Shown: positions 496-21,972 of the stretch, piece by piece | Position numbering within the stretch: the first letter of the stretch is position 1 | How the letters are laid out: each line of letters begins with the position of its first letter | Source of the DNA: Hyaloperonospora brassicae | Taxonomy: Eukaryota; Oomycota; Peronosporomycetes; Peronosporales; Peronosporaceae | Assembly (NCBI GenBank): GCA_947650285.1 | Contig: CANTFL010000144.1 | Span: 1-64,000 of the forward strand | Length of the DNA stretch: 64,000 bases | Reading direction: 5' to 3' | Notes under the pieces: generated by a model | Database searches by the model: none | Seen by the model: only the letters and a program-made list of their open reading frames with translations | Told to the model about the DNA's origin: nothing | Position numbers and translations under genes: made by a program

Positions 496-3063
496 CTAGA
501 ACGGAAGCTTCGGTATAATTACGCCAAGCTTAAGGCCAGAGGCCAGTTGCGAACTCGCACACGCTATGCTCCGGCTGTGCCGATTGATGTGGGTTTTGGT
601 CAAGCGGTACCCAACTACCCACCTGCCTCCACCCCTATTGGTGGGAAGCGCGCTCGGTCGAGGGATGACCCCTGCCACGATGTTCAAAAAATCAACGGCG
701 TATGGGCAATCCTGCCGAAGGGGTGTCTCAAACTCCCACGAGTTCTCCGACTCCGGGTACCCTCGCCACTTCACCAGATACTGGTATTGACCCTGACGAC
801 GACGTCGTTTCAGGAGTCGCTCCATATAGAACTGGCGGTTCCCTTGATCATCGAGCAGCGTCGGAGGTGGTCGGTATACCGAAGTAGGAGCATGAGAAGG
901 TGCTTCTCGATCTGAGTGGTCTCCGTGAGACATCGGGTAAGACCCAGAGTGCGTTTGACGCGATGCTAGCCCGTGTCCAGGCGTTGGAGTTGAGCCAAGC
1001 TCGGATGGAGGCTCAGCTTGACCTCCTGATACGGATTCAGCAACCGATGGAAAGGCAAACCTACCCGGCGCAAGCGCCTCCAAGTTCACGTGGGACGGAT
1101 CCCGATACGGCTTAAGTAAACCAACGTAGAACACGGGGTGTTTGCGCAGTTTTTGCGGAAGGTTGAGCGTATACGCAAGCCCCTTCTTGGCGACGACCGT
1201 GAATGCTTCAATGAAGCGCGGTCGTAACTTTGTCTTGAAGACGGCAGACACTACATTTGTAGGTAGGTTTTTAACATTGAGTATAACTTGGTCCTCGAAC
1301 TCATAACGTTCAATACAACCTCTGCCTTTAGCATCAGCTTGTTCCTTCTGCTTGTCTTGGCTATCAGCCAGTGCGTCACGCACATGTCGTAAGACATTCA
1401 ATCGCGTTGCGAGAAACTCGCTTACCTGTTTTTGAACAGTAGAAGGGCTGATATCAGCAAGACGATCGGCAACTCCTCCCCCACCAAGCCCTGAACCACG
1501 CAGTGGTAGCGTTAACGGAACGCGAGGGTGTGTGAGACCATTCACATAAAACGGTGTGTAGCCGGTGGAGGCATGCACGGCGTTATTCAACGCAAACTCA
1601 ACGACAGGTAGCATCGAACTCCAACGCTTTGGCGTTTCAGCGCAAAAACTGCGCAAGATGTCACCGACGATGCGATTCATTCGCTCGGTTTGACCATCAG
1701 TCTGCGGATGATCCGCTGTGGACATGTACAAACGTGTGCCGAGCACCTTGAAGATGGACTCCCAAAACTTCCCAGTGAATCGAGGACCTCTATCAGAGAA
1801 AATTGCCAACGGCAAACCGTGTTGTCGAAACACGCGATCGATAAACAGCGTATCTGTACCTTCACCATCAATGGTATCTGGCATTGCTGCTAAATGAGCC
1901 ATCTTGCTCAAACGGTCAACAAAGACCACAATACCCGTATTTCCATACGAATCCTTCGGTAATCCGAACAGGAAGTCCACGCTGATGGACTTCCAACACC
2001 CTTTGGGTATAGGCACGCTAGACAGCGGCGCGGCTGTGTGAGGTGATGGTTTCACCCGTTGACACGTTTCACACGTACGCACATATGTGCTCACCCATTT
2101 GTATAGTTTGGGCCACCAATAGCATTGGCTAACTGAGCCGTAGGTCTTTTCACGACCGAGATGACCACTAAACGCAGTATCATGTGCCTCATAGAGGATC
2201 CGATACTTCAACTCCTCATCATGAGGGACAACGATGCGAGGGGTATCATCCACATCCGTGCTATAGCACAACAGGCCTTGATCGATGGAATATCGATGTA
2301 TCCTCGCACGTAATCGTGCCGACAATTCTATGTCCGAGTCCTTGAACTCCTCGCTCCCTAGAGCACGTAGCAGAGCTACACAGTGTTCATCCTTGGCATA
2401 TGCCGTACGGATTAGGTCAGTGACCGACGACAACAGAGTCGTAACATGAGCAAGCTCATAGTCAGGCCTGCGTGACAACGCATCATCCAAAGCATTCTGC
2501 TTGCCCGGCTTATACTTCACCTCGAAGTTGTACTCGGCAAAGGAGGAAAGCCAACGAGCCATTCTCTGATAGAGGTGAGGCGACTGGGTCGCAGTGCGTA
2601 GTGACGCATGATCTGTATAGATCACAAACGGCTTAGAGTAAAGCAGATGAACTCTGAATTTGACGAGAGCATACTTCATTGCAAGTAGCTCTTTTTCATG
2701 AACAGGATATTTATTTTCTGCAGCCTTCAGCTGCCGGGACTCAAACGCAATGACGCGTTCCTGTCCATCAGAATCTGTCTGTAACAAGGCGCTGCCTATG
2801 GCAAAGTGAGACGCGTCACAGACGACACTGACAGATCGATCAGGATCAGGCAAAGCCAACATTGGCGCATGAAGGAGACTCTCCTTTACTGCTTGAAAAG
2901 CATCATGCTCGGTGCTAGTCAAGCACCATTCCACATCTTTTTTTACAGAGATTGGATAATGTCCGAGCCATATCTGCGTAATTCGCACTGTAGTTGTGCA
3001 AGCAATTGGAAAGGCCAAGCAACTTACGTAAGTCCTTTTGATTCTTAGGAACCGGCCAATCAA
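496..3063 (-). CDS. pol: Element B RNase H, integrase and chromodomain
   Basis: A single open frame of 855 codons. Order: RNase H (VVCDASHFAIGSALL; FVIYTDHASLRTA; KQNALDDALSRRPDYE); integrase HHCC zinc finger (H-x-H then CETCQ); integrase DDE core (ISVDFLFGLPK, FSDRGPRFTGKFW, and the glutamate in TDGQTERMNR); a GPY/F-like module; and near 690-880 a chromodomain (FYMERLLKRRR, YQYLVKWRGYPESENSWE). A chromodomain on integrase typically steers insertion to marked chromatin. The N-terminal residues of the open frame belong to the RT-RNase H join; there is no independent start. Residues after the chromodomain are probably read-through of the 3' UTR. Confidence 0.92.
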   Translation of the reverse strand: MIGRFLRIKRTYVSCLAFPIACTTTVRITQIWLGHYPISVKKDVEWCLTSTEHDAFQAVKESLLHAPMLALPDPDRSVSVVCDASHFAIGSALLQTDSDGQERVIAFESRQLKAAENKYPVHEKELLAMKYALVKFRVHLLYSKPFVIYTDHASLRTATQSPHLYQRMARWLSSFAEYNFEVKYKPGKQNALDDALSRRPDYELAHVTTLLSSVTDLIRTAYAKDEHCVALLRALGSEEFKDSDIELSARLRARIHRYSIDQGLLCYSTDVDDTPRIVVPHDEELKYRILYEAHDTAFSGHLGREKTYGSVSQCYWWPKLYKWVSTYVRTCETCQRVKPSPHTAAPLSSVPIPKGCWKSISVDFLFGLPKDSYGNTGIVVFVDRLSKMAHLAAMPDTIDGEGTDTLFIDRVFRQHGLPLAIFSDRGPRFTGKFWESIFKVLGTRLYMSTADHPQTDGQTERMNRIVGDILRSFCAETPKRWSSMLPVVEFALNNAVHASTGYTPFYVNGLTHPRVPLTLPLRGSGLGGGGVADRLADISPSTVQKQVSEFLATRLNVLRHVRDALADSQDKQKEQADAKGRGCIERYEFEDQVILNVKNLPTNVVSAVFKTKLRPRFIEAFTVVAKKGLAYTLNLPQKLRKHPVFYVGLLKPYRDPSHVNLEALAPGRFAFPSVAESVSGGQAEPPSELGSTPTPGHGLASRQTHSGSYPMSHGDHSDREAPSHAPTSVYRPPPTLLDDQGNRQFYMERLLKRRRRQGQYQYLVKWRGYPESENSWEFETPLRQDCPYAVDFLNIVAGVIPRPSALPTNRGGGRWVVGYRLTKTHINRHSRSIACASSQLASGLKLGVIIPKLPF
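900..1115 (+). CDS. Short antisense coiled-coil ORF opposite the integrase-chromodomain linker of B
   Basis: Plus-strand frame, antisense to pol of B, with heptad-like leucines (ARVQALELSQARMEAQLDLL) and a stop at 1113-1115. The stop falls over the same pol segment (GLLKPY after the GPY/F module) where the longer antisense frame of element A ends (RLRSYC), and the last residues are alike (TDPDTA here, RTDSTT in A). It may be the C-terminal part of an antisense gene whose 5' part is broken or different in B. Constraint from the sense pol frame could also produce the similarity, so confidence is low. Confidence 0.3.
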   Translation: MLLDLSGLRETSGKTQSAFDAMLARVQALELSQARMEAQLDLLIRIQQPMERQTYPAQAPPSSRGTDPDTA

Positions 3064-3975
3064 CTATGGCTTTTAACTTAGCGGGATCCGCTCTAAGATC
3101 TCGCTTACCAATAAAGCACCTTAAAAAGGAATCTCTTCTGCACCAAAGATGCACTTAGATGCGTTGGCATACAACTTATTTGTGCGCATGCACTAGAGCC
3201 CCGCTCGTATATGGTCAATGTGATTGTCCACATCTGACCGACCGTTCATGGCACGACTGTGGACAAAGATGTCATCAAAGTGTGTCTGTGCATATACTCG
3301 GTGAGGTCTAAACAATTGTGTCACAAGACGATTGAATGTAGCCGGGGCATTTGATAATTCTTGAGGTATAACAAGCCACTCCCAGAGCATTCCGCTTGGA
3401 GTGCTGACTGCTGTCAGCGAAATATCGCTTTCTCGCATGAGAAGCTGGTAATAACCATCGACTAAGTCGAGCGCAATGTACATTGTACATCCCACCATAT
3501 TGTTCTGAAGAACATCCTTCCTCGGAATTGGTGTCTGAGCCGGGATGGTGGCCGCATTAAGCTTATTGTAAGCATGAACAATGCGCCACTTCCCATTGGG
3601 CTTTTTGACACAGAAGGTCGGTGTGGAATGGGAAGATTTGCTCTCACGTACCATTCCTGCCGCGTGCTTTGCACGAAAGAAGTCGTCAATGACGTCACAC
3701 TGTTCCTTCAGTAAAGGCCACTGCCGTGTTACGCAGTATTTAGTTCCAGGAACCAAGTCAATTTCATGACGTACACCTCTATCGGGAGGCAAGACGGACG
3801 GTGGATTGTGACACATCACGTCCTGAAATTCCTTTACCAAAGGATAGAACGGATCAATAGGGTCCTTAAGGATCGAAGATCTACTACGGGCATCCAATGC
3901 CGCCTTTGTGTCCTCAAGGATTGACTCGTCCAATAATGAGGATGAGTTCAGCTCAATATCCGGCCGTATGACCAC
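2915..3975 (-). pseudogene. pol: Element B reverse transcriptase
   Basis: Copies element RNA into DNA. The order of RT motifs is clear: [20 protein letters not shown], then [13 protein letters not shown], then [20 protein letters not shown], then [11 protein letters not shown] at the catalytic Y-x-D-D position (tyrosine replaced by histidine), and the thumb KLYANASKCIFG with AIVDWPVPKNQKDLRKLLGL. The frame is interrupted by a stop near 3193 and changes frame near 3060-3150 before RNase H. The linker to protease is divergent. Identity is certain; activity is doubtful because of the stop and the changed active-site tyrosine. Confidence 0.88.
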
Positions 3976-4005
3976 TAACTCGGATAGTTCTCCTGCCTGT
4001 AAGGC

Positions 4006-4491
4006 TTAACTAAATTCGCCGTCAGACATTTCGTCTAGTTCAAAGAGAGTATCCAAGGATGGAAGAGTATCAAGACTAATATTGCCATCAATCTGGCCAG
4101 TCAATCCATTGACAAGTGTATATAGTGTATTATTACTATTATCACTTCGTGACTTCTTAGACGTTGGACGCTTAACAGTTGCCACCCTACGCTGAGATTG
4201 TTTCCTCAACGAAACCTTACGCCTCCTAGAGACCGGGAAAGTAGGTTCCCCGTGAGTGCTATTCATCTTAGCACGCTCTGTACGAGAGCTCATGTCTTGA
4301 ACGACATCTGGTGAAGTATTGCGTAACTCGAACACTTCACCCAGTGGATTTACACGTACCACTTTACGTACAGCATTCGGGCCTAGCCCTGAATACTCTG
4401 GCTTCTTGCCATCAATGTCATTACAGACATTCAGTGAGGTGCCACCTCGGCCGCCCTCACTCGGTTTAATTTCACGTGCCACCCCACTCAC
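4006..4491 (-). pseudogene. Element B protease-RT linker
   Basis: An open minus-strand stretch of 161 codons between protease and RT with a Lys/Arg/Ser-rich middle (RRRKVSLRKQSQRRVATVK). I recognise no domain. Elements A and C have a similarly long, poorly conserved spacer at this place, so it is probably the linker of the Pol polyprotein rather than a gene of its own. Confidence 0.45.
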
Positions 4492-4527
4492 ATCAGAGTA
4501 ATTACAATCTTGATGTCTCGGCCCTAG

Positions 4528-5202
4528 TCAAATCATGCCTGCATCATGCAGTGACTCAGTATCACAACGACTATCACTCAATTGAGTATAATCACCTTCA
4601 CATACGGTGAAAGAGCTCCGCTCAATATGGATGTCATTGACATTGGAGTTGATTAACTCTGACATACCAATGTCCAGCACATTGGCATCTTCCGTCAATG
4701 GCTCTCGCCAATAGCGCTTTTGTTGCCTAGCAAAGGTGGGTTCATGAATCTCCAAATCTTCGCTAGGAACACTGCGCGTGGCGCCTAAGATCTTAGACAT
4801 CCAATCAATCCATGGCTCATGGCGTTCAAGCCAAGCCATACCCAGGATGAGATCGTATCTCGAATCCAAATCGATGACAAGACAGCGTTCAATGCTGTCA
4901 AAGTCCGAAAACTTCACACCTAAGTTCAACGGAACTTTAGGCACCGTGACGCGACTACCAGTCGCTAAACGAACGGTGATTGAATCACGTTCATGCGCTT
5001 TGAGCGCTTCAGCGTATCGCTGACTTCCCTCAAGGGAACGACGTCGAGCATAATCATAATTGCATGATGCTTCGGAGTCGATTAGGATCGACCAATGCTT
5101 CTCAAAGCCTTTAATCTTCGCCTCGGCGACTAACAATCCAGGCTTGAATCCACGCTCTGTGCTGGTGGGCACATAGCTCGGTGGGGCTAAGCCCTGATTC
5201 AC
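4528..5202 (-). CDS. pro: Element B retroviral-type aspartic protease domain
   Basis: Open frame between the zinc knuckle and the RT of element B. It carries an aspartic-protease-like core: ILIDSEASCN at the place of the usual D-S/T-G-A active site, then ITVRLATGSRV, and DLILGMAWLERHEPWIDW, which matches the conserved ILG-W-L flap/end region of Ty3 proteases. The glycine of the active-site triad is replaced (DSEAS), so this copy is probably catalytically impaired. It would cleave the Gag-Pol polyprotein. The first methionine is not a real start; the domain would be read as part of Gag-Pol. Confidence 0.75.
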   Translation of the reverse strand: MNQGLAPPSYVPTSTERGFKPGLLVAEAKIKGFEKHWSILIDSEASCNYDYARRRSLEGSQRYAEALKAHERDSITVRLATGSRVTVPKVPLNLGVKFSDFDSIERCLVIDLDSRYDLILGMAWLERHEPWIDWMSKILGATRSVPSEDLEIHEPTFARQQKRYWREPLTEDANVLDIGMSELINSNVNDIHIERSSFTVCEGDYTQLSDSRCDTESLHDAGMI

Positions 5203-5339
5203 TCTACCTCGTAGAGAAGTGACAGAACCCAGTTCTACACCAGTGGGGCACCCCGCGCCTACTGGGTATCGACGTTTCCCCGTGCCATACCAGGTTTCTG
5301 GTTGTGGCTGGGGTTTCGACCCATAGGATTCTGTCGTTG

Positions 5340-6205
5340 CTTACGCAAAGGACAAGTGTGACGCAAGTGTTTAGTGCTTCCGCACATATAACAGCGTTTC
5401 ACTTCCTGTCGTTGCTCTGCAACATGAAGCTTCGCTTCACCTTCATCTTCAGATGGCTGAGATCCATCGGTTCTGGCTTACAATAAGCCGAGGTTCTCGC
5501 AGAGGTTGCCCTCGCAAAGCTTGGGTTGTACTTATTCCAAGCCGACTTGAAGTTGTGCTCAGAATTTTGAGCGATGCTAACAGCCTCCTCAAAAGTAGAG
5601 GGATGGACTCGAAACACCTCGGTCCTGGCAGCGCCGGTGCGGAGACCTTCCATAAAGACTGTCACGCAGACAGTCTCAGGGAGAGGGTCAGACTGCATAG
5701 AAGCCATCAGAGTTCTCAACTCCTGGGCATAGTTCGCTAGCTCATTCTTACTCTGAAGGGTAGACAAGAAGCGTGAATGCACGCGATAATACTGGTTAGG
5801 CGGCGAGAAAACTCGCAAAAGGTCTAACTTGAGCGAATCCCATGTGGGAAACGCCAAGTCGACCGACGTGCCACACGTCAGAGACCACTCTCTAGCTCTT
5901 CCATCGAGCTTAAAGATAGCCAGCGAGACCCGCTGATACTCCAGTGAGATAAGGCCAGAGCTCATGGCCACATCAATCTCACGTATCCAGAGATTGAGAT
6001 TTTTCCTCTACTTCCCAGAGTAATGTTTGACGTCCACCCGAAGAGGACACGGCTTAGCCTCTTCATCTGGCATCGCCACATAGCGTGTTAGCATATCCGA
6101 CGCTGCTTGGTTTTGAACCTGCCTTAAAACGGCCGTTTTATACTGCATGAAGTTCTCGACACGCGCATTGAGCACTTCGGGACCTTGTGCAGCTAAACTC
6201 CACAT
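5340..6205 (-). pseudogene. gag: Element B gag (capsid and CCHC zinc knuckle), broken
   Basis: The structural protein of the retrotransposon particle. A first open stretch (6205-6008) ends in an in-frame TAG, and the same frame resumes with residues NLNLWIREID, so this looks like a single nonsense change. The central part has the Retrotrans_gag pattern (WDSLKLDLLRVF; NYAQELRTLMASM; FMEGLRTGAARTEVF). The CX2CX4HX4C zinc knuckle (CYMCGSTKHLRHTC, about 5345-5400) follows in another frame after a frameshift near 5400. Homology of the parts is clear; the exact start is uncertain. Confidence 0.8.
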
Positions 6206-6870: not shown

Positions 6871-6955
6871 CATCTCGTTTGTTACTGACATAAGAGTGCG
6901 ATTAATCCCTTCAGACAACAATTCGCCGTCACCAGTTTGGCGTTTAAACGACTTG
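6871..6955 (-). mobile_element. 85-bp slice of Ty1/copia element stranded between B and A
   Basis: Read on the minus strand this slice gives an open frame (KRQTGDGELLSEGINRTLMS) that joins in frame to the copia sequence at 14860 when element A and one ACTTG copy are removed. It is therefore the continuation of the copia element at 14860-17340, cut on one side by A and on the other by the LTR of B. Confidence 0.7.
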
Positions 6956-7345
6956 TGTAACGGGGCAGCCCGTTACATGGATTTGTCACTTTAAAGAAAG
7001 TGACAATAAAGAATATTAAGTTGAATATTCTTAAAACAATATCACCAAAGTGGTGATATTGAAAGGTCGACCAAAGATTCTGTTCATTGGTTGATATCAT
7101 GATGATATCAACCCACCAATCGCCGCAAGACGCGCGCAATGAGTGGTGACGAGACGTCACCATACACTCAGTTATATTAGCATAATTAAGTTAAGTCAAA
7201 CAGAGAGACAGTAGTCAAAAGACTTAATTATATTAATATAAGAGTTCTGCTTTTACCTTACCTACGCTTCCTCGCTCGCCTTGTGTACGTCTGTCGGGGC
7301 ACCGATACCCTTGCGTTAAGTTACGCAAGGGTGTGCCCCGTTACA
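6956..7345 (+). repeat. 5' LTR of element A (390 bp)
   Basis: Starts TGTAACGGGG and ends CCCCGTTACA, so the LTR has 10-bp terminal inverted repeats, much longer than the usual TG/CA. It nearly matches the 3' LTR (14469-14859) and the solo LTR (17395-17785). Inside are perfect hairpins at 6956-6977, 6983-7006, 7011-7030, 7037-7061, 7090-7112, 7145-7161 and 7308-7331. Promoter and polyadenylation signals should lie here, but I cannot place them. Confidence 0.95.
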
Positions 7346-7347
7346 CC

Positions 7348-7365
7348 TGGTAGCACTTCGTATTC
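7348..7365 (+). promoter_or_regulatory. Candidate primer-binding site of element A
   Basis: Two bases after the 5' LTR the sequence begins TGGTAGCACTTCGTA. A TGG start is expected for a site pairing with a tRNA 3' CCA end. The same place in C (TGGTAGCTCTTTGTAG on its sense strand) and in D is alike, supporting function. I cannot name the tRNA. Confidence 0.45.
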
Positions 7366-7389
7366 CTTCCAAGGACCACAACATCCAAC

Positions 7390-8451
7390 ATGTTCATGTT
7401 GGATGAAGAAGACACCTTTCGCACCACGCGTGAAGGGTTTGACCATTTGAGTGACATCGAATGGGGTGCGGTAGAACGAATAAGTTCTACCGTAGGCGAG
7501 CTCGCCATTAGCGCCATGTTGGAGTCTCTTGACAGAGGCCAACAGCATGCCGCTATAGCCAAGTTCATTCAAAATGAACTTGTCGCCGAAAAGGGAGAAA
7601 GTATCCTTGCTTTACCAGCAAGGTTCTCAACAGGCCGACAGTTGAGAGAACTCGGTGCTTAATAAACAGAGCTGTTGAGACAGCAGCAATTCCATGCTGC
7701 TGTGGGCGGGACGGCGCATGCGTGTCGTCCCGAGGTCATGAAAGTTGACATCTCCAAGTACAGTGGGGTCCCGGAGGACTCCCTGTTGTTGTGGTTTGTC
7801 GAACTCGAAAGAGCCCTAAGGGCTCGTTGCGTCGAAGATGAGCAAATGAAACTCACATTTGCTCAGACCCACTTGTCAGGGCGTGCCAAAACTTGGTCCC
7901 TGGGGCTCGAGAGTAGCGACCCACATGTGTTTGGGTCGCTAGAGGACTTCAAGTCCCGGCTCAGACAAACGTTTGAGCCGCCACGGGCTGAGTTCAGGGC
8001 TCGTTCAGAGCTCCTGAAACTCAAGCAGGGTAAGCGTGATGTGCACGCTTACGCACAACATATACGACTCCTCGCGAGTAGTATAACTGCTAACCCAGTT
8101 CATGAACACACGTTGATCACGGTGTTCATGCAAGGGCTCGCAGAAGGGCCCGTCAGGAGCCACCTGTTCCGCCTCGAGCTGAATACGCTGGAAGATGCGA
8201 TATCAGCCGCGGAACAGGAAGACTTTAGCATGAGACAGGCTCATGCTAGCTTAAACTCTTATCGTCCACCGAGACGACAAGAGATCGGAGGTCCGGAACC
8301 AATGGACCTCTGCTATGTTGAGAGCGAGAGACCTCGCTCTACAAACAACAAGCGATTGGAGTGGTGCAATCGCTGTCAGAAGTTAGGGCACTACGCATAT
8401 GAGTGTAGTGCTCCACGCCCAGTACCAAACAGTACTGAGCGAAATGAATGA
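7390..8451 (+). pseudogene. gag: Element A gag with CCHC zinc knuckle, two consecutive stops
   Basis: Particle structural protein. It opens MFMLDEED and runs in one frame to 8451 except for a double stop (TAA TAA, 7660-7665). The C and D copies have the same N-terminus (C: MLGDVEGDSFHGTRESYSYL). The core shows FKSRLRQTFEPPRAEFRARS, VHAYAQHIRLLASS and FMQGLAEGPVRSHLF, typical of Retrotrans_gag. The zinc knuckle CNRCQKLGHYAYEC (CX2CX4HX4C) is near the end. The stop at 8449-8451 overlaps the first codon of the protease frame (8448), a -1 relation, as if pol were reached by frameshifting or reinitiation at ATGA. Confidence 0.85.
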
Positions 8452-9311
8452 CCATTTTCCAGAAAGGGCAATGGGCGTGGGTCCAGCGCTGTTGCGAAGC
8501 CGCAACAGCGAGACGGACCATAAAAAAATGGTCGGGGTCAGTAGGGGCGGAGCGCCCTACTGATCCAGCAACCTCAAGAGAATTTGCAAATCTCTTGACG
8601 AAAGTTGCTCCAGAAACACAATCATTGTGTGTCTCTGCACCTGGTGATGACGTTTCGCTCATCACCTTGAAGTTGGAAGCGTTAAATGATTTGTCGCTTC
8701 GTGCCCTAGTAGACTGTGGGGCGTCGAACTACATTGTTCGTCGCCATTCACTAGAGGGTCGTAGACTCAAGTTCGTTGAGCGCGACATTCCCCTCACGAG
8801 GATGACGGTGCGCCTTGCAACAGGCGCATCAATTACCGGTGAGAAACGTATAGTAGGAATCCACTACACGTTAGAGGGCTAACAGTACGATGATGATTTC
8901 ATCGTACTAGATCTGGATGACAAATTTGATGTCATCCTGGGATTACCTTGGCTCAGAAAGTACGAGCCAAGGGTGAGCTGGCAGCATCGATCCGTGAAGA
9001 TGCCTGCCGCTTGTTCATCAGATGGCCATCTGATGAACATCTTGGAGCGTCCACAAGCGTGTGGATGTTCTGCGAGTGAGTGCGATGGCCTCACTTGCGG
9101 TACGGCCGTTAGCACGACTGCACAAGATCACAGTGTAGTTGATCACTACACATTGGAGCAAGCTCCCGGCGGCTGTACAGAAGTACAGGCTGCGCCGAAG
9201 GTCCACCACTCGAATAAGTCGAGTGGACCGGGACATGGATGCATGCCTCGCGGGCAGCATCTTAGAGAAAAAGAAACCGGTTGCCCACAAGCGGCAATAT
9301 ATAATTCCTAG
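8448..9311 (+). pseudogene. pro: Element A aspartic protease
   Basis: Frame -1 relative to gag. Active-site-like segment LRALVDCGASNYIVRRHSL (D-C-G-A in place of D-S/T-G-A), followed by MTVRLATGASITGEKR and, after a stop at 8880-8882, FDVILGLPWLRKYEPRVSWQ. It matches the protease of B and the remnants in C (27620-27988) and D (20286-20615). Beyond about 9040 the frame is a long variable linker with Cys and His residues that changes frame near 9300. It would process the Gag-Pol polyprotein; this copy is broken. Confidence 0.8.
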
Positions 9312-9473
9312 GTCGACTGGAGAGTCGACCGTAGAGGATCGGTTCCTGACTGTGGTTGCACAGCCACAGTCAGAAGACGTCGAGGGAATAAGTCCCCACG
9401 TGCTTGAGAAAGGAATTCCTCAAGAGTCACTTGCACCGGATCAAGCGTAGGCGCTTATACGCTTGATCTGAAT

Positions 9474-10668
9474 GTGCCTCCGAAGTTTACTTCGGAGATA
9501 ACTCAATTGCCAACGCTAGAGACGAAACGGTTCTTGCGTGATCTGCGTGGTGGCAAAGTCAAGCAGATCTGCATACTCGTCACAGAGGATGAATATGTGG
9601 CCGATATTCGGTCGGCCACAGTATTTGCTGAGAACGAACGGGTTCTCACCAGCTCATCGATGGACGAAAGTATCCTCGATGAGAAGACTCGGATTGAGCG
9701 ATACACGTCTCAATCCTGGGAGTCACTACAGGCAAATCCCTTGTATAAGGATTTGATCGAATTGATGGATGTGTTCCCTGAATCCGTACCTTGCGAGTTG
9801 CCTAAGGACAAGGGCACTCGACACGAGATCGAGCTCAAACCGGACTCGAAGTACTGTGTCATGAAGCAGTGGCCACTTCCTCGTGAACAAGTACTAGCGA
9901 TCGACAAGTTCTTTGCCGATCGCTTAGCAGCGGACCATGTGAGGGAATCAACATCCCATCACAGCTCTCCTACCTTCTGTGTGCGAAAGGCCACATAAGA
10001 ATTGCGGATAGTGCACGCATTCAACAAGTTGAATACTGCAACGGTACCGGCTCAGACGCCGATATCAAGGAAGTACGTGATCATTGATGGTGTGTCAAAG
10101 AGTACCATCCTCTCGTCCATAGATAGGATGGATGGCTTCTATCAGATCCTCATGCGTGAACGGGACATCCCGTACACAGCAGTGAGCACCCCCAGCGGGA
10201 TGCTGCGGGAGTGGCTAGTGAGGCTAGAAGGGCTGAGTATTGCCACTTCAACATTTAGTAGATGTGTAACTCTGGTTGACACCAGTGCGGGATTTAGCGC
10301 CGAGTTACTTTGACGATGTGTTCGTTCATAGCCGGGCTATGGACGGAAAGACGGACGTTGAAGTCCCCAGAGCACACGTTCGTCAGGTAGTTCAACTTAT
10401 GGGCAAGCATAAGTTGTACGCCAACCTCAAGAAGTGTATATTAGCGGCTAGCAAAATACCGCTTCTTGGGTGCATCGTGGGTAAACTCGGCGTAGGCACT
10501 GATTTCGAAATTATCAAGGCAATCATCGACTGGCACGGGCCAGTCGATGTCAAGGGACTAAGGAAGTTCCTTGGTCTTGCGGCATACTTGCACAAGTACT
10601 CGCGCAACTACGCCGAGATGACTGTTCATCTTTCTTGTCTGCTCAAGAATAATGTCAAGGGGTCATAG
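9474..10668 (+). pseudogene. pol: Element A reverse transcriptase
   Basis: RT motifs in order: PTFCVRKAT, stop at 9996-9998, then LRIVHAFNKLNTATVPAQTP, SIDRMDGFYQILMRERD, TPSGMLREWLVRLEGLS, a frame change near 10270-10310, and the catalytic YFDDVFVHSRAM, then YANLKKCILAASKIPLLGC and VDVKGLRKFLGLAAYLHKY. The Y-F-D-D active site is intact. The stop at 10666 separates the thumb from RNase H. Family assignment is certain; this copy is not translatable as one protein. Confidence 0.9.
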
Positions 10669-10802
10669 AACGCTGACTGTCAGCGTTCCGTTGAGGGTAT
10701 CAAGCAAAGATTGATGCAATCGCCGATCTTGGCGATTGCAGATCAGGACAGACCATTTCATGTGGTCTGTGACGCCATCGATTTGCAATCGGCTGTGCGT
10801 TA

Positions 10803-13360
10803 ATGCAGTTCGACGCAGATGGCGCGGAGCGCGTCATCTGTTATCAGTCGCGTCAGCTGCAAGCAGCTGAGCGTAATTACCCAGTGCATGACAAGGAACG
10901 CCTTGCCATAAAGTACGCACTGGCTAAGTTTCGCGTCTATCTCCTGGGAGATAGACCGTTTGTTGTCTACACGGACCATGCGTCATTACGCACGGCCGTA
11001 AACAGCCCACACCTCTCGCAAAGAATGGCGAGGTGGCTGTCTTTCTTCGCGGAGTATAACTTCTCCGTGGAGTATAAACCAGGACGACTGAACGTCGTCG
11101 CTGATGCGCTCTCGCGCCGGCCCGATTTCGAGCCGGACGCACAATTCAACAGTGAGGATAAGCCCACTGTTGCGACACTGTCAGTCAGTGTCCCGTCGTC
11201 AAGTTTACCTGACGACGTACGAAAGGCATACGCAGAAGATAAGGCTCTTCTGCGATTAATGGATCATCTGGTGAATCCATCCAGTAAATCCATGAGGGAT
11301 TTACCGGGTTTGTACCGATCCTCATCGGATCGGTATAGTACACGCAACGGATTGCTGTACTATACAGCTGTTGCCGACGACACGCCTCGTGTCGTCGTAC
11401 CCGCTCATCATGATTTGCGTTTACGCATCATGTATGAGTGTCACGATGCCCCAACAGGTGGCCATCGTGGTAGAGAAAAGACTTACCTCGCGGTAAGTCG
11501 TGAATTTTACTGGCCGCGCCAGTATCAGTTTGTACGCAAGTACATACGTGCTTGCGAGGTTTGTCAACGGGTAAAGCCTAGTCCTTCATCCCGTGCGCCA
11601 TTGCACCTCTGCCGGTCCCGGCAGAGTGTTCTGAGTCTGTTTCCATGGACTTCGTCTTCGGGTTTCCCGAAGATGCTCACAAGAATAATGGTATTCTTGT
11701 GTTTGTGGATCGTTTCAGCAGGATGGTGCATCTTGCTGCTGTCCCCGAGTCGATCAAGGCTCAAGGTTGTGCTCGTGTCTTTCTCGACACGGTCTTTAGA
11801 CTTCACGGGTTACCCCGTGAGCTCGTATCCGACCGTGACCCTCGATTCACGGCGGCATTTTAACAAACCGTGTTCCGTTCTCTCGGAACACGATTGAAGA
11901 TGTCTACTTCTGACCATCCCGAAACAGATGGTCAGACGGAACGTGCGAACCGTGTCCTCGAAGAGATCCTTCGAGGATATGTCCACTCGTTTCCGAGTTG
12001 GAGCGAATTCCTACCCATGGTGGAATTCGCCATCAATAATTCGGTGCATGCTTCAACACAGCACACACAATTTTACGTGAATGGTTTACACCATCCACGT
12101 GTACCCTCCCTGCTAGAGTATGACTCTTGGATACGGGGCGGAGGGACTCGCTCGAGAAAAAACCGTTTTATCTCTTGCTCACCACGTGTCAACGCTAACG
12201 TCGTCACGTATGATGCCGATGTCGACAATTTCGACATCGATGAAGAAGATCGTCTCAATAATAGCGACAACGCTATTATTGGCTCGGATGATGATGACGA
12301 TGCTGGTATATTCAGCATCGTCAACGATTATTCCAGCGAGGAAGAAGACAACCTCGCTGAAGAAGAGAGCAATCTCTTAGCAGTGCGCACGAAGCGCACT
12401 GAAAGGCAAAATAAAGAGTCAGCGGAGAACTTCCTGCTGACTCGAGAAGCGGTAGTCCGTTTCGTTCAGGACTCCATCGCAAATGCGGTGGACCGTCAGA
12501 AACGGAACGCAGACAAGAATGGAAGAGCAAATGTTCTTTCATTTAAGATTAACGACCTAGGTCTACTGTCTACGGTAAACTTGCCTGGACATGCAGTCAC
12601 TAGTGTCGGCAGTAGTAAACTACTGCCGAAGTACATTGGGACATTTCGAGTGTTGCATCGCAAGGGCAATGCATACACACTCGAATTGCCACGTGGGATG
12701 CGCACGCATCCTACGTTTTACGTGGGAAGGCTTAGGTCGTACTGTCAGTACGAGCCTTCTTCTTCCGATGAAGATAGCCCCCACGTTCAAGAACATCCAT
12801 CAAGTTCTTGCGTTCGCGCTCCAGACGATCCGTCTGGTCGCGCAGATATGATACCTCGGAACTCGACCGAGATATCTCCCCGCGAGCTGTCGCCAGCTCG
12901 CCGTAAAGGGAGCGGACATCCCGCTCGACCTGAAGCTGCGCTGTGGCAAAATCGGCGCGATCCCTCGCCCGATCAGCCTCGTAATCCTTGCGATTTTTCC
13001 GCACGGTATCAGTCAAAGTGTAGCGCCGGTCGCGCTCGTGCTTCAAGTCATCGCGCAATTCATCGATTGCGCGATCCATCTCGTAAGGGTCAAGATGGTG
13101 AACCGAATCAACTATAGGAGGTCTTTCCTCCTCCACCACATCCTTTGGTGGATGCTCACGGTGATCAACGCTTTCTAGTGAAGCGTATCTTGAATCACCG
13201 TGACGATTCAGGATCAAGGACGAGCTACCTCGTCCAGTGGCGGGGGTATCCACCCTCTTGGAACAGCTGGGAGCCCCGCTCTCAGCTGTTGATGGATGTT
13301 AAAGGTCTCGTCCGCCAGTATTACGAGACTCATCCGATGATTCCTCGGGCCCATCGGTAA
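10803..13360 (+). pseudogene. pol: Element A RNase H, integrase, acidic insert and chromodomain
   Basis: RNase H (FVVYTDHASLRTAVNS; NVVADALSRRPDFEPD), integrase zinc finger (HDAPTGGHRGREKTY then CEVCQRV), DDE core after a frame change (MDFVFGFPEDAHK; VSDRDPRFTAAF; TDGQTERANRVL, with a stop at 11861 between the last two). Then comes a very acidic insert of about 80 residues (runs such as GSDDDDDAG and SSEEEDNLAEEESN, about 12190-12380), a GPY/F-like module (LLPKYIGTFRVLHRKGNAY) and, after a stop at 13115-13117, a chromodomain (FLVKRILNHRDD; SYLVQWRGYPPSWNSWE). B lacks the acidic insert and C has it. Its last 630 bp overlap the antisense frame. Confidence 0.9.
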
Positions 13361-14338
13361 ACACGCGCTTCTGGCGCTTGTAGACGGATTGCAAGTTTGC
13401 AATCGCGTCACGCATCTCGGCCGAGATGTGTGTCCTTCCCCAGGGCGAACTTAGGGAATACACATCCCTATGTGCACGCTGCGAGTTGTCAACACAACTC
13501 GCACAAGGGTCTCCCCATGTGAGGCAAGGAATGTCTGCCTCACTCGACAAACAGTGCAACCGGTACCTAGCACCGGTTGGCGCTCGCCTTTCGAAACTGA
13601 GGCGTGTCGCCTCAAGTTTCTTGAGCCACCCTTCTTGTCCAAAATTCTTTACGTTTTGGACGAATGCGTTCCACGCAGCCAAAAGCGATGCTTTGTCACG
13701 CTTTTGGTTGCCGTTGTATCATCGATGTCTAAGAAAGACATCGAGATAAAATTCTTCTTCAGTGCGAAAGTTCTTCGCGCTGGAACTCAAGACGTGAAGC
13801 TCAGTCGCATCGAATAAGGGTATTCGATGGTGTTGGCTTGTCTCGTAAGACAAGCTATTGATGAGCCGTTCGGGCAAACGCCACGGCTTCGGCTCATCAC
13901 GCTTCACAGTGGTACCTCTGTCGGTACCACGGCTCCCAGATTGACGACGGCTCACGCCATCGTCATCACGCTCGTGCGAAGACGCACGAGCCGGCGGTGG
14001 TAAGGAATAATATTCCCCACCGCCCTGATCATCGTCATCACTGCCGAACAGACTGTGATGCGAATCACGAGTCCGTTCGTTCGGCAGTGGCCTTGGCGAT
14101 ACTGAGGCGTCGCCGGTTAGCGAGACGCCTCTGGAGCATTGCCCGAGTCAGACACGTCTGACTCGCAAGAGTAGATGACCTCAACGTCGGGGTCATCATG
14201 CACACGCGTTGAGGTGCCGCGTGCTCCTGCAGCACCTGTTGCTGCAGGCGAAGAAGGAGCATCAGACGACAAATCGTCTGCCGCAGAGGTTGGCACAGCA
14301 CCGGGCTGTGTGGGTCTTGAGTCACCTCGCATCGACAT
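12732..14338 (-). pseudogene. Antisense gene of element A: Ser/Asp-rich, Cys motif, C-terminal coiled coil
   Basis: Minus-strand reading frame of about 535 codons, opposite the last part of pol and the 3' UTR, opening MSMRGDSRPTQPGA. Segments in order: acidic Ser-rich region; RGTDRGTT; a conserved block LPERLINSL, FDATELHVLSSSAKNF, EEEFYLDVFLRHR; a Cys block CLTWGDPCASCVDNSQRAHR; AEMRDAIANLQSVYKRQKRV; and a long coiled coil (about 12750-13120) ending KKKARTDSTT. Frame changes lie near 14120 and 13300 and a stop near 13717. Element C has the same protein in the same place (22102-23693) with many synonymous differences, which argues for past protein function. No known family recognised. Some plant gypsy elements carry antisense genes before the 3' LTR. 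Confidence 0.6.
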
Positions 14339-14456
14339 GTTAACTATGCGAGGTCAAGCGGAAAGTTAATGGAACGGACCCAACAAGTGCTCCCTGTCCC
14401 AATGGTGGCCAACGGGTGGCTGCCATATTTTCGATAGTCACACGGTGACTATCAGT

Positions 14457-14467
14457 TAAGGGGGGTG
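14457..14467 (+). promoter_or_regulatory. Polypurine tract of element A
   Basis: AAGGGGGGTGA directly before the 3' LTR start (14469), the place where plus-strand DNA synthesis is primed. Element C has AAAAGGGGTGA at the matching site (about 21973-21985 read on the minus strand). Confidence 0.8.
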
Positions 14468-14468
14468 A

Positions 14469-14859
14469 TGTAACGGGGCAGCCCGTTACATGGATTTGTC
14501 ACTTTAAAGAAAGTGACAATAAAGAATATTAAGTTGAATATTCTTAAAACAATATCACCAAAGTGGTGATATTGATGGGTCGACCAAAGGGTCTGTTCAT
14601 TGGTTGATATCATGATGATATCAACCCACCAATCGCCGCAAGACGCGCGCAATGAGTGGTGACGAGACGTCACCATACACTCAGTTATATTAGCATAATT
14701 AAGTTAAGTCAAACAGAGAGACAGTAGTCAAAAGACTTAATTATGTTAATATAAGAGTTCTGCTTTTACCTTACCTACGCTTCCTCGCTCGCATTGTGTA
14801 CGTCTGCCGGGGCACCGATACCCTTGCGTTAAGTTCACGCAAGGGTGTGCCCCGTTACA
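14469..14859 (+). repeat. 3' LTR of element A (391 bp)
   Basis: Same ends (TGTAACGGGG and CCCCGTTACA) and about 98% identity by eye to 6956-7345. Followed at once by ACTTG, the second copy of the target-site duplication. Confidence 0.95.
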
Positions 14860-17340
14860 ACTTGGTTCTCACTCGGTTCGGTCGCCTCAGTGACGGTTCT
14901 ACGTTCGTATTCAGTTTTTCACGATTCTGCTGTGAACCGGGAACAGACGCGGTTGGCACTATCACAACATTCACAGCGTGCCCTTGATATCGCGCATGAT
15001 CGTCTCGAGCAGTGCGTGCAAGTTCGTTCATGGAATCTGCACTGAAGGCACGTGTGAGTCCGTCGCTTGCACTCACGTCCAACGTATGAACGTTAACAAT
15101 GTGACGCTTCGTTACGACCTTAAGCTACTCTAGAAGCGAAAACACGAGAACCTCTGTCTTTTCGTGCTTACCGATGACGATACCTCGTGTCCCTTGCTTT
15201 ATAAGCAAGTATGTTTTCGAATGGTAATACACTGTACAATGTAAAATACACGCCACGAGGTTGACGAGGGCGGCCAGCTTCCCCGTAAGAGCCTGTATCA
15301 TCGACACCCGCCTAGCATTTGCCGTAGTTGCCATCCTGATTTGGATAAAGGTAGCGTACTCGCCAGCATCCGCCAAAATTTAAGGGGTAGTCTACAGCCA
15401 AACAACATGCATTTTCTCTCGGCCTTGTCGGTCGCTGCCGAATTGTTGGCTTCAGCAACTTGGCGTCCGACGCCGGAGTCACGACACAACAGATCCACAT
15501 TCTTGTACTCCCCACCACTCTCGGTGGGAAACACGTGCACTCGCACAATTCACCTCTTCTCGAGAAAACAAGGAAGTGTTTTGGACACTGTCGCCGCCTC
15601 GTACTTCGTCTGTGCGACAAAGACATAGCAGAATATTCTCTTGTGATCGACAACGCTCACCACGTACCAATTCTCACGGCGGTATTGCGGCGTGATTGGT
15701 CCTTTAAACTCACAGTAGATGTACTCAGCAATCACGTCTTTCGGTGCACTTGCACTTATGTCAAACGTTTGTTGTCGATCCTTCATTGTCTTGCCTGCAG
15801 AGAATAGAACGCACATCGGTCGTTCGCGATTTGTCAGCTCAGTACCAGAGCCTAGAAGTGACGCGAGTCGCTCGACTGTGTCGTGTGACAAGTGCATAAA
15901 ACGACAATGAAAAGTGTACAGAGTGCTCGATTGCTCATTTGCGTCGCGTGTTCAGCTAAGATTGCATTTTTATGGCTGGGAAACAACGTTGTTCATATCG
16001 TGCATTCTATACGGGGAATGGTTGGCCGCTGCGCGGTCGACAGCAAGAACGCTGATCTTAAGTTTGACAAAAAGAACAGATGCATTTCCAAGCACAACCT
16101 CTTGCCTTCCGCCGAACATTGAAATATGACACCCTTTCTCGAAGAAAATGTCGAGTGAAATCAGGATGTACGAAAGAAACGGTGCTTAGCACGCGTTGGA
16201 GAATTTCTGAGTCTGAATCCCCTAGTCAAAGGTTACGATCGAAGCCTCTGTGCCTTAATGCATGACGGGCAACGTACCTCCATCGGGTCATTGACTGTCT
16301 TCGTCACACGTGACAATTTCTTTGAGCATCGCCTCGTAACGAAAGAAGTGAACGCTTGCACTACTGTCGTCGATCCAGTCGTCTGGCAACACGCAGCCGT
16401 AGTGCAGACTAAAGAATCTAAACGTTTCCCGTCGCCCTCTTCACGGTATTTTTTTCGGTCTTATTTTTTGAAATATACCCTGTCGTCTTACAATAGAAGC
16501 ACTCGAGTACTCAGTAGCGTGTCGACTCCGCGAAAAAAACCGCCTGGGCGGCGTTGTCCACCGGACCTGTGTGACTGGTGTAATCAAATAGAGTGCCAAC
16601 GCATCTGGCCTTTATGAGCTTGTTATAATTTTCTTGCGCCCAACGTGATAGCTTACTCACGTGAAGCGCGTATTCGGTGCGGTATGAATAGACCTGCCCG
16701 AGACGCACCGGTATCATAGCCTCGGCTGCGAGCTTGAAAACGTTCTTAAGATAGTGTGCGTCCGATGCAACGGTAGCGTTATTGACTGAAACCACGGATG
16801 GGTGGGGTCGTGCCATGACGTGACATACGCCTTGCGAGTCTTTGACTTTCCTGCCCACTTTTTCATTACGAACACAATGGTGAACACAGCAGCCATCCGT
16901 TCAATGACGTCTGCTAGCGTCAGTTCAGTCGACAGCCACGATATGGCTTGTGACATAGAGAACGTCTCAGCTTTGCACATCGTGAACGAACCTAATTTCG
17001 ATACCCCGAACCGAACAGTCCACGGGTAAGCACACGCGTCTTAGCCCATCGCGAGCTAATCGCACAAGGCAGTTGCCCATAATTTGAACCCGCTGCCTGA
17101 GGCCTTAATCTAACTCAGAGGCATCAAAGTTTCGCAAGAAGATTTTGGAATTACGTGCTGGCGTCAACCGAGCAGCGACGTCACTGAGATGTACGCCCTC
17201 TGATGGAGGCGGTCCGAGTGGAGGAGGTGAAGGGTGCAGGAGGTTGTAAGGCAGTGGCTGCTGCAATCGATTCTTTGCCTCGAGTAAGCCTGACTGATAA
17301 GCTTATACCGAAGCAGCATTCAACGCGCTGCTACTTCTTC
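14860..17340 (-). mobile_element. Degenerate Ty1/copia element (minus strand)
   Basis: Minus-strand fragments in copia order. From about 16980 down lies Gag-like sequence (YLKNVFKLAAEAMIPVRLG). At 15897-15550 is the GAG-pre-integrase segment (HLSHDTVERLASLL) followed by the integrase start (IYCEFKGPITP; NWYVVSVVDHKR). At 15546-15298 is the integrase core end (SGGEYKNVDLLCRDSGV, then PLKFWRMLAST), and at 15376-15125 LIKQGTRGIVIGKHEKTEV. The linker LRRPNRVRTK at 14890-14860 continues across element A into 6871-6955. Many stops and frameshifts; no RT is in the window. The left part is broken by A and B and the right limit is uncertain. Confidence 0.8.
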
Positions 17341-17394: not shown

Positions 17395-17785
17395 TGTAAC
17401 GGGGCAGCCCGTTACATGGATTTGTCACTTTAAAGAAAGTGACAATAAAGAATATTAAGTTGAATATTCTTTGAATAATATCACCAAAGTGGTGATATTG
17501 ATGGGTCGACCAAAGAGTCTGTTCATTGGTTGATATCATGATGATATCAACCCACCAATCGCCGCAAGACGCGCGCAATGAGTGGTGACGAGACGTCACC
17601 ATACACTCAGTTATATTAGCATAATTAAGTTAAGTCAAACAGAGAGACAGTAGTCAAAAGACTTAATTATATTAATATAAGAGTTCTGCTTTTACATTAC
17701 CTACGCTTCCTCGCTTGCCTTGTGTACGTCTGTCGGGGCACCGATACCCTTGCGTTAAGTTCGCGCAAGGTTGTGCCCCGTTACA
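17395..17785 (+). repeat. Solo LTR of the A family, TSD TTCAC
   Basis: 391 bp with the same termini and hairpins as the LTRs of A. Bases 17390-17394 and 17786-17790 are both TTCAC, a perfect duplication, and no internal element sequence is attached. This is the product of recombination between the two LTRs of a former full element. Confidence 0.95.
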
Positions 17786-21529: not shown

Positions 21530-21972
21530 TACGTAATGGGGCACTGATTGCCTCGTACGGAAATACCAGTACGGAGTCAACTCTTACTGACAACAGTGAA
21601 GGTCAATGCTCTGCTTTGTATTTGCACTATACAGAGGAAGGTTAATGAATAAGGTGAAGACTCTAGTCGTGGTGAAAGTAAAACTGGTATTTTATACAAT
21701 AATTCCTGCAACTATTGTTTCTCTGTTTGTCCTGACTCCATTATATTGATATATATATAATAGTATGATGACGTCTACTCACCACCTATTGCGTGCGTCT
21801 AGCAGCAAGAGGTGGGTTGATATAATCACGATGCCAACCGAGGAACAGACCAGTGGGTCATCCCAACAAAATCAATCTACTTAGTGGTATAGCTAACAGA
21901 ATATTCAACGTAATATTCTTCGTTACTATTTTGTCACAATGGCAACCTTATATAACAGGCTACCCCGTTACA
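21530..21972 (-). repeat. 3' LTR of element C
   Basis: Begins TGTAACGGGG at 21972 (minus strand), just after the polypurine-like AAAAGGGGTGA, and ends near 21530. It aligns by eye to 29088-29525 over shared stretches (CAGTACGGAGT, ACTGACAACAGTGA, ACTCACCACC) with many differences. Inner and outer edges are good to a few bases only. Confidence 0.7.

Follow-up and report, generated by a model that had tools for sequence, protein, structure and literature searches.

Why should a retrotransposon carry perfect short hairpins almost from end to end, including the regions that encode its proteins? The question is raised by element A, which lies in the window analysed here, a 64,000-nucleotide stretch of Hyaloperonospora brassicae DNA (contig CANTFL010000144.1, positions 1 to 64,000). 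Element A is a Ty3/gypsy LTR retrotransposon of the chromovirus branch: it is bounded by a pair of LTRs (7 mismatches in 390 aligned bases) and by a target-site duplication (TSD), and encodes Gag, reverse transcriptase, RNase H and integrase in the Ty3 order, with a chromodomain at the integrase end (Table 1). Pfam matches were obtained for gag, RNaseH, integrase, Tf2-1 SH3 and the chromodomain; the reverse transcriptase matches were weak, falling below the curated cut-off, and the integrase core (rve) was absent from the matches listed. The three antisense open frames gave no Pfam match above the cut-off; in copies L014 and L009, a single open antisense frame (563 and 462 aa, respectively) matches or overlaps part of them. 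No empty site of element A was found in the genome with up to 2 mismatches allowed, and a search of viral contigs for relatives yielded 6 pattern matches, none of them a relative; by protein, relatives are present in Peronospora effusa, Bremia and Phytophthora.

Table 1. Features of the window, with coordinates and strand.
Feature	Position	Strand	Remarks
Element B	496..5971	-	second Ty3 chromovirus; chain of perfect 5-bp hairpins
TSD ACTTG, left copy	6951..6955	.	direct reading
Element A	6956..14859	+	Ty3/gypsy chromovirus, LTR to LTR, bearing the hairpin chain
5' LTR, 390 bp	6956..7345	+	terminal repeat TGTAACGGGGCA/TGCCCCGTTACA
gag open frame	7666..8451	+	Ty3-type capsid match; zinc-knuckle matches below cut-off
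Hairpin-free stretch of element A	9756..10392	+	zero counted perfect hairpins
Reverse transcriptase pieces, frame broken in element A	9999..10668	+	RVT_1 matches below curated cut-off
RNase H and integrase zinc-binding domain	10773..11897	+	374-aa open piece; 16 perfect hairpins
Integrase C-terminal part (SH3_Tf2-1)	11864..13117	+	16 perfect hairpins
Three antisense open frames	12732..14147 (12732-13298, 13299-13718, 13719-14147)	-	
Chromodomain	13118..13360	+	Pfam Chromo E 1.7e-13
3' LTR, 391 bp	14469..14859	+	hairpins nearly identical to the 5' LTR set
TSD ACTTG, right copy	14860..14864	.	direct reading
Solo LTR of the A family	17395..17785	+	TSD TTCAC at 17390-17394 and 17786-17790
Element D	21751..29484	-	diverged, decayed relative of A; span as matched, ends approximate

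Counting as hairpins all perfect stems of at least 7 bp with loops of 3–12 nt, we found 106 in element A (6956–14768 as cut), against means of 3.2 and 3.9 when the sequence was dinucleotide-shuffled in two series of 10. A preliminary description of this DNA had listed 16 examples, and each proved to be a perfect inverted repeat (stems 7–11 bp, loops 3–10 nt); the excess also holds against codon-preserving shuffles, as the two open pol pieces of element A carry 16 hairpins each (1.0 and 1.1 in shuffles) and the pol frame of the very young copy L009 carries 76 (shuffle mean 4.1, maximum 12, n=200). All eight LTR-to-LTR copies of the A family hold 105–136 hairpins each, compared with 3.3–5.0 in dinucleotide shuffles, L009 having 136, and the more diverged element D still has 44, against about 4. 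Host DNA (31–64 kb of the window), described as devoid of such a chain, indeed contains 24 compared with 19.4 in shuffles.

The chain starts at base 1 of the 5' LTR, where the first hairpin begins, and the solo LTR carries 6 hairpins within its first 300 bp. In L009, which has about 17 perfect stems of at least 7 bp per kb, coverage is even: 17.9 hairpins per kb in the 5' LTR, 18.3 in the leader plus gag, 15.8 in pol, 21.5 in the 3' part and 20.0 in the 3' LTR. The spacing is wider than the 25–45 nt first claimed for element A, where the mean distance is about 74 nt (106 hairpins in 7813 nt); the median centre-to-centre distance in L009 is 44 nt. The chain lies far above chance but is not quite continuous, as element A has the hairpin-free stretch given in Table 1. 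Part of this stretch is covered by a tract (about 9930–10530) that differs by 3–7% from D and by 9–14% from L009, A and D being 95% identical over 9975–10594; to judge from these identities, the tract was probably acquired by gene conversion from a D-like element. L009 is also hairpin-poor immediately ahead of the matching tract. The loop-length excess in L009 peaks at 4–5 nt, with a smaller excess at 21–50 nt (17 versus 3.0). Its stems are scarcely enriched in GC (0.532 versus 0.522 in spacers), and the tendency to longer stems where the sequence is AT-rich (rho −0.38 overall) was not significant in pol alone (rho −0.15).

Is element A unique in this respect, as had been supposed? Element B was said to look different, and at stems of at least 7 bp it does, with 8 hairpins in 6.9 kb compared with 3.8 in shuffles. 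However, at stems of at least 5 bp with loops of 3–6 nt, the stretch 501–6000 contains 98 stems compared with 20.1 in shuffles, and element B matches A in density per kb. Stem length is typical of the family: about 8–10 bp for A, 5 bp for the B clade, and both 5 and 8 bp for L029. The cut-off at 5 bp is sharper than in shuffles in L031 and L032, and not significantly so in B itself; the loop excess of this clade peaks at 3 nt. Two further Ty3 families show an intermediate hairpin excess, and stems are GC-richer than the whole piece in L029 (0.68 versus 0.55) and L030 (0.61 versus 0.54). Copia pieces have hairpins in one local cluster or none. All four of the Ty3 families studied in the genome, that of B included, show the trait to varying degrees.

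Folding energies gave a similar picture. In 150-nt windows, the RNAfold z-score is −4.75 for element A, −5.60 for L009 and 0.02 for host DNA. The MFED reaches 47.7% in L009 and 41% in element A, compared with 29.8% in MS2, 31.7% in Qbeta and a mean of 0.1% in 31 host fragments, and all 22 fragments of L009 have an MFED of at least 26.9%, folding below composition-matched shuffles along the whole element. The z-scores are similar on both strands of L009; in L031, L032 and B the antisense strand folds slightly better (p 0.016–0.042). Self-folding of 21- and 25-nt windows is raised in L009 and A; since B and L031 come near them at a weaker threshold, this test of a small-RNA shield is not decisive.

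To what extent are the stems conserved? Stems carry 0.022 variants per site that are found in at least three copies of the A family, spacers 0.055 and loops 0.111; private changes stand at 0.290, 0.322 and 0.310, respectively. The ratios between these rates are indicative only, since L009 served to define the stems and the copies are related to one another. At third codon positions, shared variants affect 13 of 452 stem sites and 138 of 1148 sites outside stems (p 1e-9). Loops are the fastest to change, and some are inverted. The hairpins are older than the insertion of the copies. When the neutral decay of L009 was simulated at 4–5%, 82–90 hairpins remained, whereas A, L010, L011 and L012, which differ from L009 by 3.9–5.2%, retain 105–113.

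The B clade behaves in the same way. Between L031 and L032, third-position divergence is 0.116 in stems compared with 0.248 in spacers (p 1.5e-6), and 62 of 83 hairpins share the same centre (null 2.9). Between L029 and L030, with 63% protein identity, 8 of the 20 L030 hairpins are co-centred (null 0.26, maximum 2 in 500), covarying stems such as CCCGACGTTTTACGTCGGG and CCCGACATTCTATGTCGGG among them; the third-position difference at L029 stems is small (0.556 versus 0.606 in spacers), so that the reduced variation at paired sites seen in the A family and the B clade is weak here. L031 shares 7 hairpin centres with A (null 2.9, maximum 8) and 3 with L029 (null 2.5), that is, none above chance in the latter comparison. 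Given these few common centres and the weak stem conservation between L029 and L030, hairpin positions turn over. These comparisons of sequences support selection for local folding: active lineages keep their stems under constraint, private changes fall in stems at a nearly neutral rate, and between families the stems partly retain their positions and covary.

On which strand would such selection act? The ancestral stem mismatches of the A family comprise 29 G-U, 27 A-C and 41 others. In the same kind of test, the E. coli rRNA control gave 14.2 G-U over chance and −2.2 A-C. Some comparisons lean to G-U (shared stem variants, 20 G-U and 13 A-C; L014 excess, 45 and 31; L031 stems with one G-U, 32 versus 23 in shuffles, and with one A-C, 21 versus 24), and others to A-C (L029, 7 G-U and 14 A-C; L009 4000–6300, 9 and 17). 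As there is no clear G-U preference among the mismatches, the constraint is nearly strand-symmetric. The folding of the genomic RNA, one of the causes first suggested, thus survives as local folding with constrained stems; selection acting solely on the sense-RNA fold is not supported, as the two mismatch types are nearly equal in stems and the rRNA control is asymmetric. We dropped the stronger argument that this equality excludes all RNA selection, since mismatch counts are symmetric in MS2 and Qbeta too, where G-U and A-C stems are about equally in excess. DNA hairpins or a copying mechanism would account for the symmetry, itself imperfect, just as well.

We consider that there is about an even chance that Ty3 elements of this oomycete are selected, while active, to keep both of their single strands folded as a series of short Watson-Crick hairpins. 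The folded strands would be the genomic RNA plus the complementary cDNA or antisense RNA, over the whole element, and each family would set its usual stem length separately; after insertion, selection would end and the stems would decay almost like the remaining sequence. We infer that self-folding itself is the benefit. Strands folded on themselves would neither anneal to each other nor expose targets, leaving less double-stranded RNA for host RNA interference; by analogy with the shielding proposed for genome-wide RNA structure in viruses, our guess is that the hairpin chain may shield the element from this defence, with compaction for packaging as a second-choice use of the folding. That a strand-symmetric, self-folding LTR-retrotransposon genome with family-set hairpin length would amount to a sequence-encoded counter-defence against RNA interference, lying beneath all the genes, is a tentative proposal, the odds being against it.

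The alternative that survives best, though we hold it to be doubtful, is that reverse transcription makes or mends the hairpins, the nascent cDNA folding back and copying its own first arm with no benefit to the element. Such a template-switch mechanism is described for RNA genes in PMC8794818. It would account for Watson-Crick pairing without clear G-U preference and for a hairpin excess chiefly at short loops (4–5 nt in L009, 3 nt in the B clade), smaller at 21–50 nt. Differences between families within one host would then be due to differing reverse transcriptases. Exact inversions affect 5 of 59 loops of 4–5 nt, but only 8 of 8000 windows taken with overlap from the spacers (p 2e-8), one inverted loop being an allele inherited at 20 genomic places, and Watson-Crick double changes exceed slid controls (3 versus 0.2 for L031 stems, 6 versus 1.0 for L032 stems). 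However, most changes are not coupled: shared changes at L009 stems comprise 43 one-sided, 1 two-sided unpaired and 3 Watson-Crick doubles, L031 stems show 32 one-sided changes in L032 beside their 3 doubles, and L032 stems 41 in L031 beside their 6. Of the L031 hairpins broken in L032, 17 of 23 differ by one broken pair. The sharp halt of stems at 5 bp in L031 and L032 also speaks against this origin, the halt in B not being significant.

One-arm conversion as the source of the differences was rejected, as changes are not concentrated on one arm in seven of eight comparisons (p 0.43 for D, 0.56 for D at positions of agreement with L040, 0.23 for L040, 0.36 for L010, 0.95 for L013, 0.30 for L015 and 0.97 for L028), copy A giving p 0.049; both arms have similar identities to other families. 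D and L040 may descend from a single insertion, as they lie at parallel places on C40, and agreement between them would then leave decay in, so their counts (G-U 37, A-C 25, Watson-Crick doubles 11 versus 1–5 slid) were given little weight. The model in PMC8794818 predicts an excess of G-C over C-G and of U-A over A-U pairs; L009 has 340 G-C versus 292 C-G pairs (p 0.06) and 251 T-A versus 307 A-T (p 0.02), the T/A order being opposite to the prediction. Hairpin-perfecting template switching, the other cause first suggested, thus leaves its mark in the loop inversions, with neither mostly coupled changes, a consistent arm bias nor the predicted pair asymmetry; it happens in these elements but does not seem to be what chiefly maintains the hairpins.

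A role of the hairpins in packaging or assembly, in which Gag or nucleocapsid would recognize numerous short stems by their shape and so compact the genomic RNA into the particle, is unlikely. The even coverage of L009 from LTR to LTR would suit this idea, as would the unconstrained loops and, if each Gag is family-specific, the family-specific stem length. Yet protein binding to the sense RNA should tolerate G-U above A-C, of which there is no clear sign, and inspection of 62 loops of 3–5 nt by eye revealed no common motif. Quite unlikely, too, is the candidate idea of a constraint on single-stranded DNA, in which hairpins of the minus-strand cDNA protect it or aid second-strand synthesis and RNA folding is a by-product: near-equal G-T and A-C mismatches are what DNA hairpins predict, and loops of 3–5 nt are favoured, but the need for 5 bp in some families and 9 bp in others is left unaccounted for. 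Chance, base composition or codon usage is refuted by the dinucleotide and codon-preserving shuffles, by host DNA at chance level and by the copia pieces, with no point in its favour.

RNA structure over a whole genome is known from RNA viruses, and its purpose is still debated. Retrotransposons leave many dated copies in each genome, so that selection during activity can be separated from later neutral decay, and Ty3 families that are rich or poor in hairpins live side by side in one host, where small-RNA data would allow them to be tested directly. Should the fold shield the element from RNA interference, its codon choice would encode a counter-defence; should a reverse transcriptase produce the hairpins, a mutational process would be building structure.

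Element A resembles other Ty3/gypsy chromoviruses in its LTRs, 5-bp target duplication, gag-pol order and chromodomain; a hairpin chain along a full-length LTR retrotransposon was not reported among the open-access titles and abstract openings searched. The RNA phages MS2 and Qbeta (Leviviricetes) share the dense local structure (MFED 30–32%) and the near-equal G-U and A-C excess, although they have 2.0 and 3.6 perfect stems of at least 7 bp per kb, compared with 17 in L009, and their replication is unrelated. Both strands of these phages need structure to stay single, and we read the mismatch symmetry of MS2 and Qbeta as structure on both strands. Perfect stems, loop inversions and compensatory pairs recall the template-switch mutations of PMC8794818; in contrast to the RNA genes described there, more than 100 hairpins run along a mobile element and the changes are mostly one-sided. 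Coronaviruses, as described in PMC7642675 and PMC3950689, have genome-scale ordered RNA structure, with consecutive stem-loops along the whole coding genome; structure persists over longer distances with little conservation of the pairings, site variation is influenced by pairing, and such structure has been proposed to shield the RNA from host sensing. The Ty3 elements described here likewise show consecutive stem-loops, turnover of pairings and pairing-linked variation. They differ in being LTR retrotransposons with perfect Watson-Crick stems of a length typical of the family, and in an MFED of 48% in L009 versus about 15% in SARS-CoV-2 and 23.4% in the top vertebrate virus, values given in PMC7642675 and obtained by another shuffling method. 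As the element is a retrotransposon and not a positive-strand RNA virus, our claim is that it works like one, not that it is one.

The preliminary description had portrayed element A as built almost without a break from short, perfect hairpins, and counting bore this out. All 16 hairpins that it listed are present, and the element (6956–14768 as cut) has 106 maximal perfect stems (7 bp or longer, loops 3–12 nt), compared with a mean of 3.2 in 10 dinucleotide shuffles; 54 of the 106 have stems of at least 9 bp (0.4 in shuffles). Each of two open pol pieces of A has 16 hairpins, where shuffling of codons between synonymous positions gives 1.0 and 1.1. Host sequence, as had been stated, lacks the chain (24 hairpins in 31001–64000, 19.4 in shuffles).

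Element A is a Ty3 chromovirus, as shown by its LTRs, its target duplication (ACTTG) and its Pfam matches to gag, RNase H, the integrase zinc domain, the Tf2-1 SH3 domain and the chromodomain; the reverse transcriptase matches are weak, as the reading frame is interrupted. Among the 120 of 1076 matches listed, the named proteins nearest to A come from downy mildews and other oomycetes, including Peronospora effusa (78% identity over 74% of the query), Bremia lactucae (81% over 51%) and many from Phytophthora. In the genome examined (100.6 Mb, 898 contigs) the family is large: the 141 scored matches, out of 5297 candidates, all have at least 94% protein identity, many with long open frames. At locus L028 (3939–4236), a 78%-identical LTR adjoins an A-type LTR and, judged by its sequence, appears to represent another subfamily of the A lineage. 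Three antisense open frames lie in a row in A at 12732–14147 (−); a Pfam search with these pieces gave no match over a cut-off. Copies L014 and L009 each have one antisense frame (563 and 462 aa, respectively) that covers or overlaps the corresponding region.

LTRs of element A and a solo LTR in the window
Feature	Position	Length	Target duplication
5' LTR of element A	6956-7345	390 bp	
3' LTR of element A	14469-14859	391 bp	
Solo LTR	17395-17785		TTCAC

Seven further LTR-to-LTR copies (L009–L015) carry 105–136 hairpins each, with 3.3–5.0 in shuffles over all copies. The richest, L009 (136) and L014 (135), differ by 0.6%. L009 has identical LTRs (0 differences in 391) and an open frame of 1601 aa, and its pol frame holds 76 hairpins, where 200 codon shuffles average 4.1 and never exceed 12; the hairpins therefore predate insertion. 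Simulated neutral change of 4–5%, using the family's own mutation spectrum, leaves 82–90 of the hairpins of L009. As A and L010–L012, at 3.9–5.2% from L009, have 105–113, part of the divergence spared stems.

Variation was analysed in 27 A-family rows projected on L009, many of them partial, with 8 or more rows in each column. Per site, private changes are nearly even (stems 0.290, loops 0.310, spacers 0.322), whereas variants common to at least three copies, expected for the most part to date from active lineages, occur at 0.022 in stems, 0.111 in loops and 0.055 in spacers; in these rates the stems are those defined in L009 and the copies are related to each other. At pol third codon positions, 13 of 452 stem sites carry shared variants compared with 138 of 1148 outside (Fisher p = 1e-9).

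Patches of unusual divergence were also seen. At about 9930–10530, A is 9–14% from L009 and 3–7% from the neighbouring element D, a decayed relative, and lacks most of L009's hairpins; the sequence pattern points to a probable gene conversion into A. At element coordinates 2300–2600 of L009, L040, a relative of D, is 4–8% from L009 and D about 25% away, which marks another possible conversion tract. On contig C40 (about 4000–26000), L040 (96% to D over 4.6 kb) occurs together with a further copy of B, in which the same frame of 855 aa is present; this region may be a segmental duplication of the left part of the window (1–30000), or its second haplotype.

Element B, the second Ty3 chromovirus, had been described as unlike A. 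This did not hold: B is built in the same way, but its stems are shorter. Counting exact stem lengths with loops of 3–8 nt, 5-bp stems exceed dinucleotide shuffles in B (85 vs 20.9) and in its clade members L031 (103 vs 18.3; 87 vs 21.8 in codon shuffles) and L032 (99 vs 18.2), with a large excess also in L033; in all four the 6-bp excess is smaller, and 7-bp stems are at about chance in most. The surplus stems have loops of 3–6 nt, 3 being commonest. In B (501–6000, −), 98 stems of at least 5 bp with such loops were counted (20.1 in shuffles), giving 96 non-overlapping hairpins at a median spacing of 41.5 nt. Among stems of at least 5 bp, the fraction reaching 6 bp is below shuffles in L031 (p = 0.014) and L032 (p = 0.0009), and not significantly different in B (p = 0.19). 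L031 and L032 have 62 of 83 hairpin centres in common (null 2.9), and at third codon positions they diverge by 0.116 in stems, 0.260 in loops and 0.248 in spacers.

In this one genome, with few pieces for each family compared, the Ty3 families form a gradient in hairpin number. Stems of at least 7 bp number 38 in 5 kb in L029 (2.2 in shuffles), 21 in L030 (3.1), 8 each in L032 and L033 (2.3 and 2.1), 8 in 6.9 kb in B (3.8) and 3 in L031 (3.0). Ten 1.6-kb pieces agree: 8.1 per kb in one of the L029 family (L052), 7.5 in one of the L030 family (L048) and 0–0.6 in eight of the L031/B clade. In a Ty3 tree with midpoint rooting, the families richest in long hairpins do not form one clade. Among four copia pieces, L041 has 4 such stems (1.7 in shuffles) and L042–L044 have 10–11 (1.6–1.7), with 6 falling in a single 500-nt bin; 5-bp stems showed no excess in the two pieces tested (L041, 11 vs 14.6; L043, 15 vs 14.8).

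Some hairpins are conserved in place. L029 and L030, at 63% protein identity, have the same centre for 8 of L030's 20 hairpins (null 0.26; maximum 2 of 500 rotations), and L009 has 4 centres in common with each (null 0.94 and 0.48, maximum 4). One hairpin is perfect in each of these three, although its sequence differs (GGCAGTAGTAAACTACTGCC, GGCGCGAGCAAACTCGCGCC and GGCGCTAATAAATTAGCGCC). Between L009 and D, the stems of L009 show 31 Watson-Crick double changes, compared with 5–13 with slid partners. However, third-position divergence between L029 and L030 is 0.556 at L029's stems and 0.606 in spacers, and L031 has few centres in common with L009 (7; null 2.9, maximum 8) or L029 (3; null 2.5). 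Hairpin positions thus turn over while density stays.

Selection or template switching had been proposed as the cause. Switching does occur at these hairpins and may create some: 5 of 59 loops of 4–5 nt have an exact reverse-complement allele, compared with 8 of 8000 windows in spacers (p = 2e-8) and 1 of 2743 in stems, and complete loop inversions are read as interstrand template switches in PMC8794818. One inversion (TCATC to GATGA; element coordinates 4438–4460 of L009, between RNase H and the integrase zinc domain) lies in an exact 30-mer at 20 places in the genome and was therefore inherited by an active lineage or subfamily. Switching seems less likely, however, to be what mainly maintains the hairpins: stem changes are mostly one-sided (43 vs 3 Watson-Crick doubles among shared changes; 32 vs 3 and 41 vs 6 between L031 and L032), the arms changed evenly in seven of eight comparisons (the exception being copy A, p = 0.049), and the pair asymmetry departs from the prediction in that paper. 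Purifying selection is the likelier keeper.

If selection acted on the sense RNA, more G-U than A-C mismatches would be expected, and overall this is not seen. Ancestral mismatches in near-perfect L009 stems are 29 G-U, 27 A-C and 41 other; five other copies tested are alike, single counts leaning either way. In the positive control, E. coli 16S and 23S rRNA, G-U is 14.2 above chance and A-C −2.2. Windowed folding z is also alike on the two strands of L009 (−5.60 and −5.94); in L031, L032 and B the antisense strand scores slightly better. The constraint therefore acts on both strands, on DNA, or through copying.

In the oomycete Phytophthora infestans, most small RNAs (21, 25/26 and 32 nt) match transposable elements, LTR retrotransposons foremost, and two abundant gypsy elements are matched along their length in both orientations (PMC3522703). 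Self-folded strands would resist dsRNA formation and would conceal target sites of either polarity, which would explain the strand symmetry, the indifference to loops and the full-length coverage. Such shielding is our preferred guess at function, a tentative one held well short of an even chance; packaging, cDNA protection and copying by reverse transcriptase are its rivals.

The folding-energy surplus over shuffles (MFED, 350-nt fragments) is 47.7% in L009, 40.6% in A, 21.3% in D, 14.2% in B, 13.2% in L029, 12.5% in L031, 11.7% in L032 and 7.1% in L030, with 0.1% in the host and −0.4% in copia L041. In PMC7642675, which used its own shuffling method, SARS-CoV-2 is at about 15%, and the highest figure for any vertebrate virus is 23.4%. 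The RNA phages MS2 and Qbeta reach 29.8% and 31.7%, and both are symmetric like the A family, with G-U and A-C excesses of 10.7 and 11.9 in MS2 and of 3.0 and 4.8 in Qbeta.
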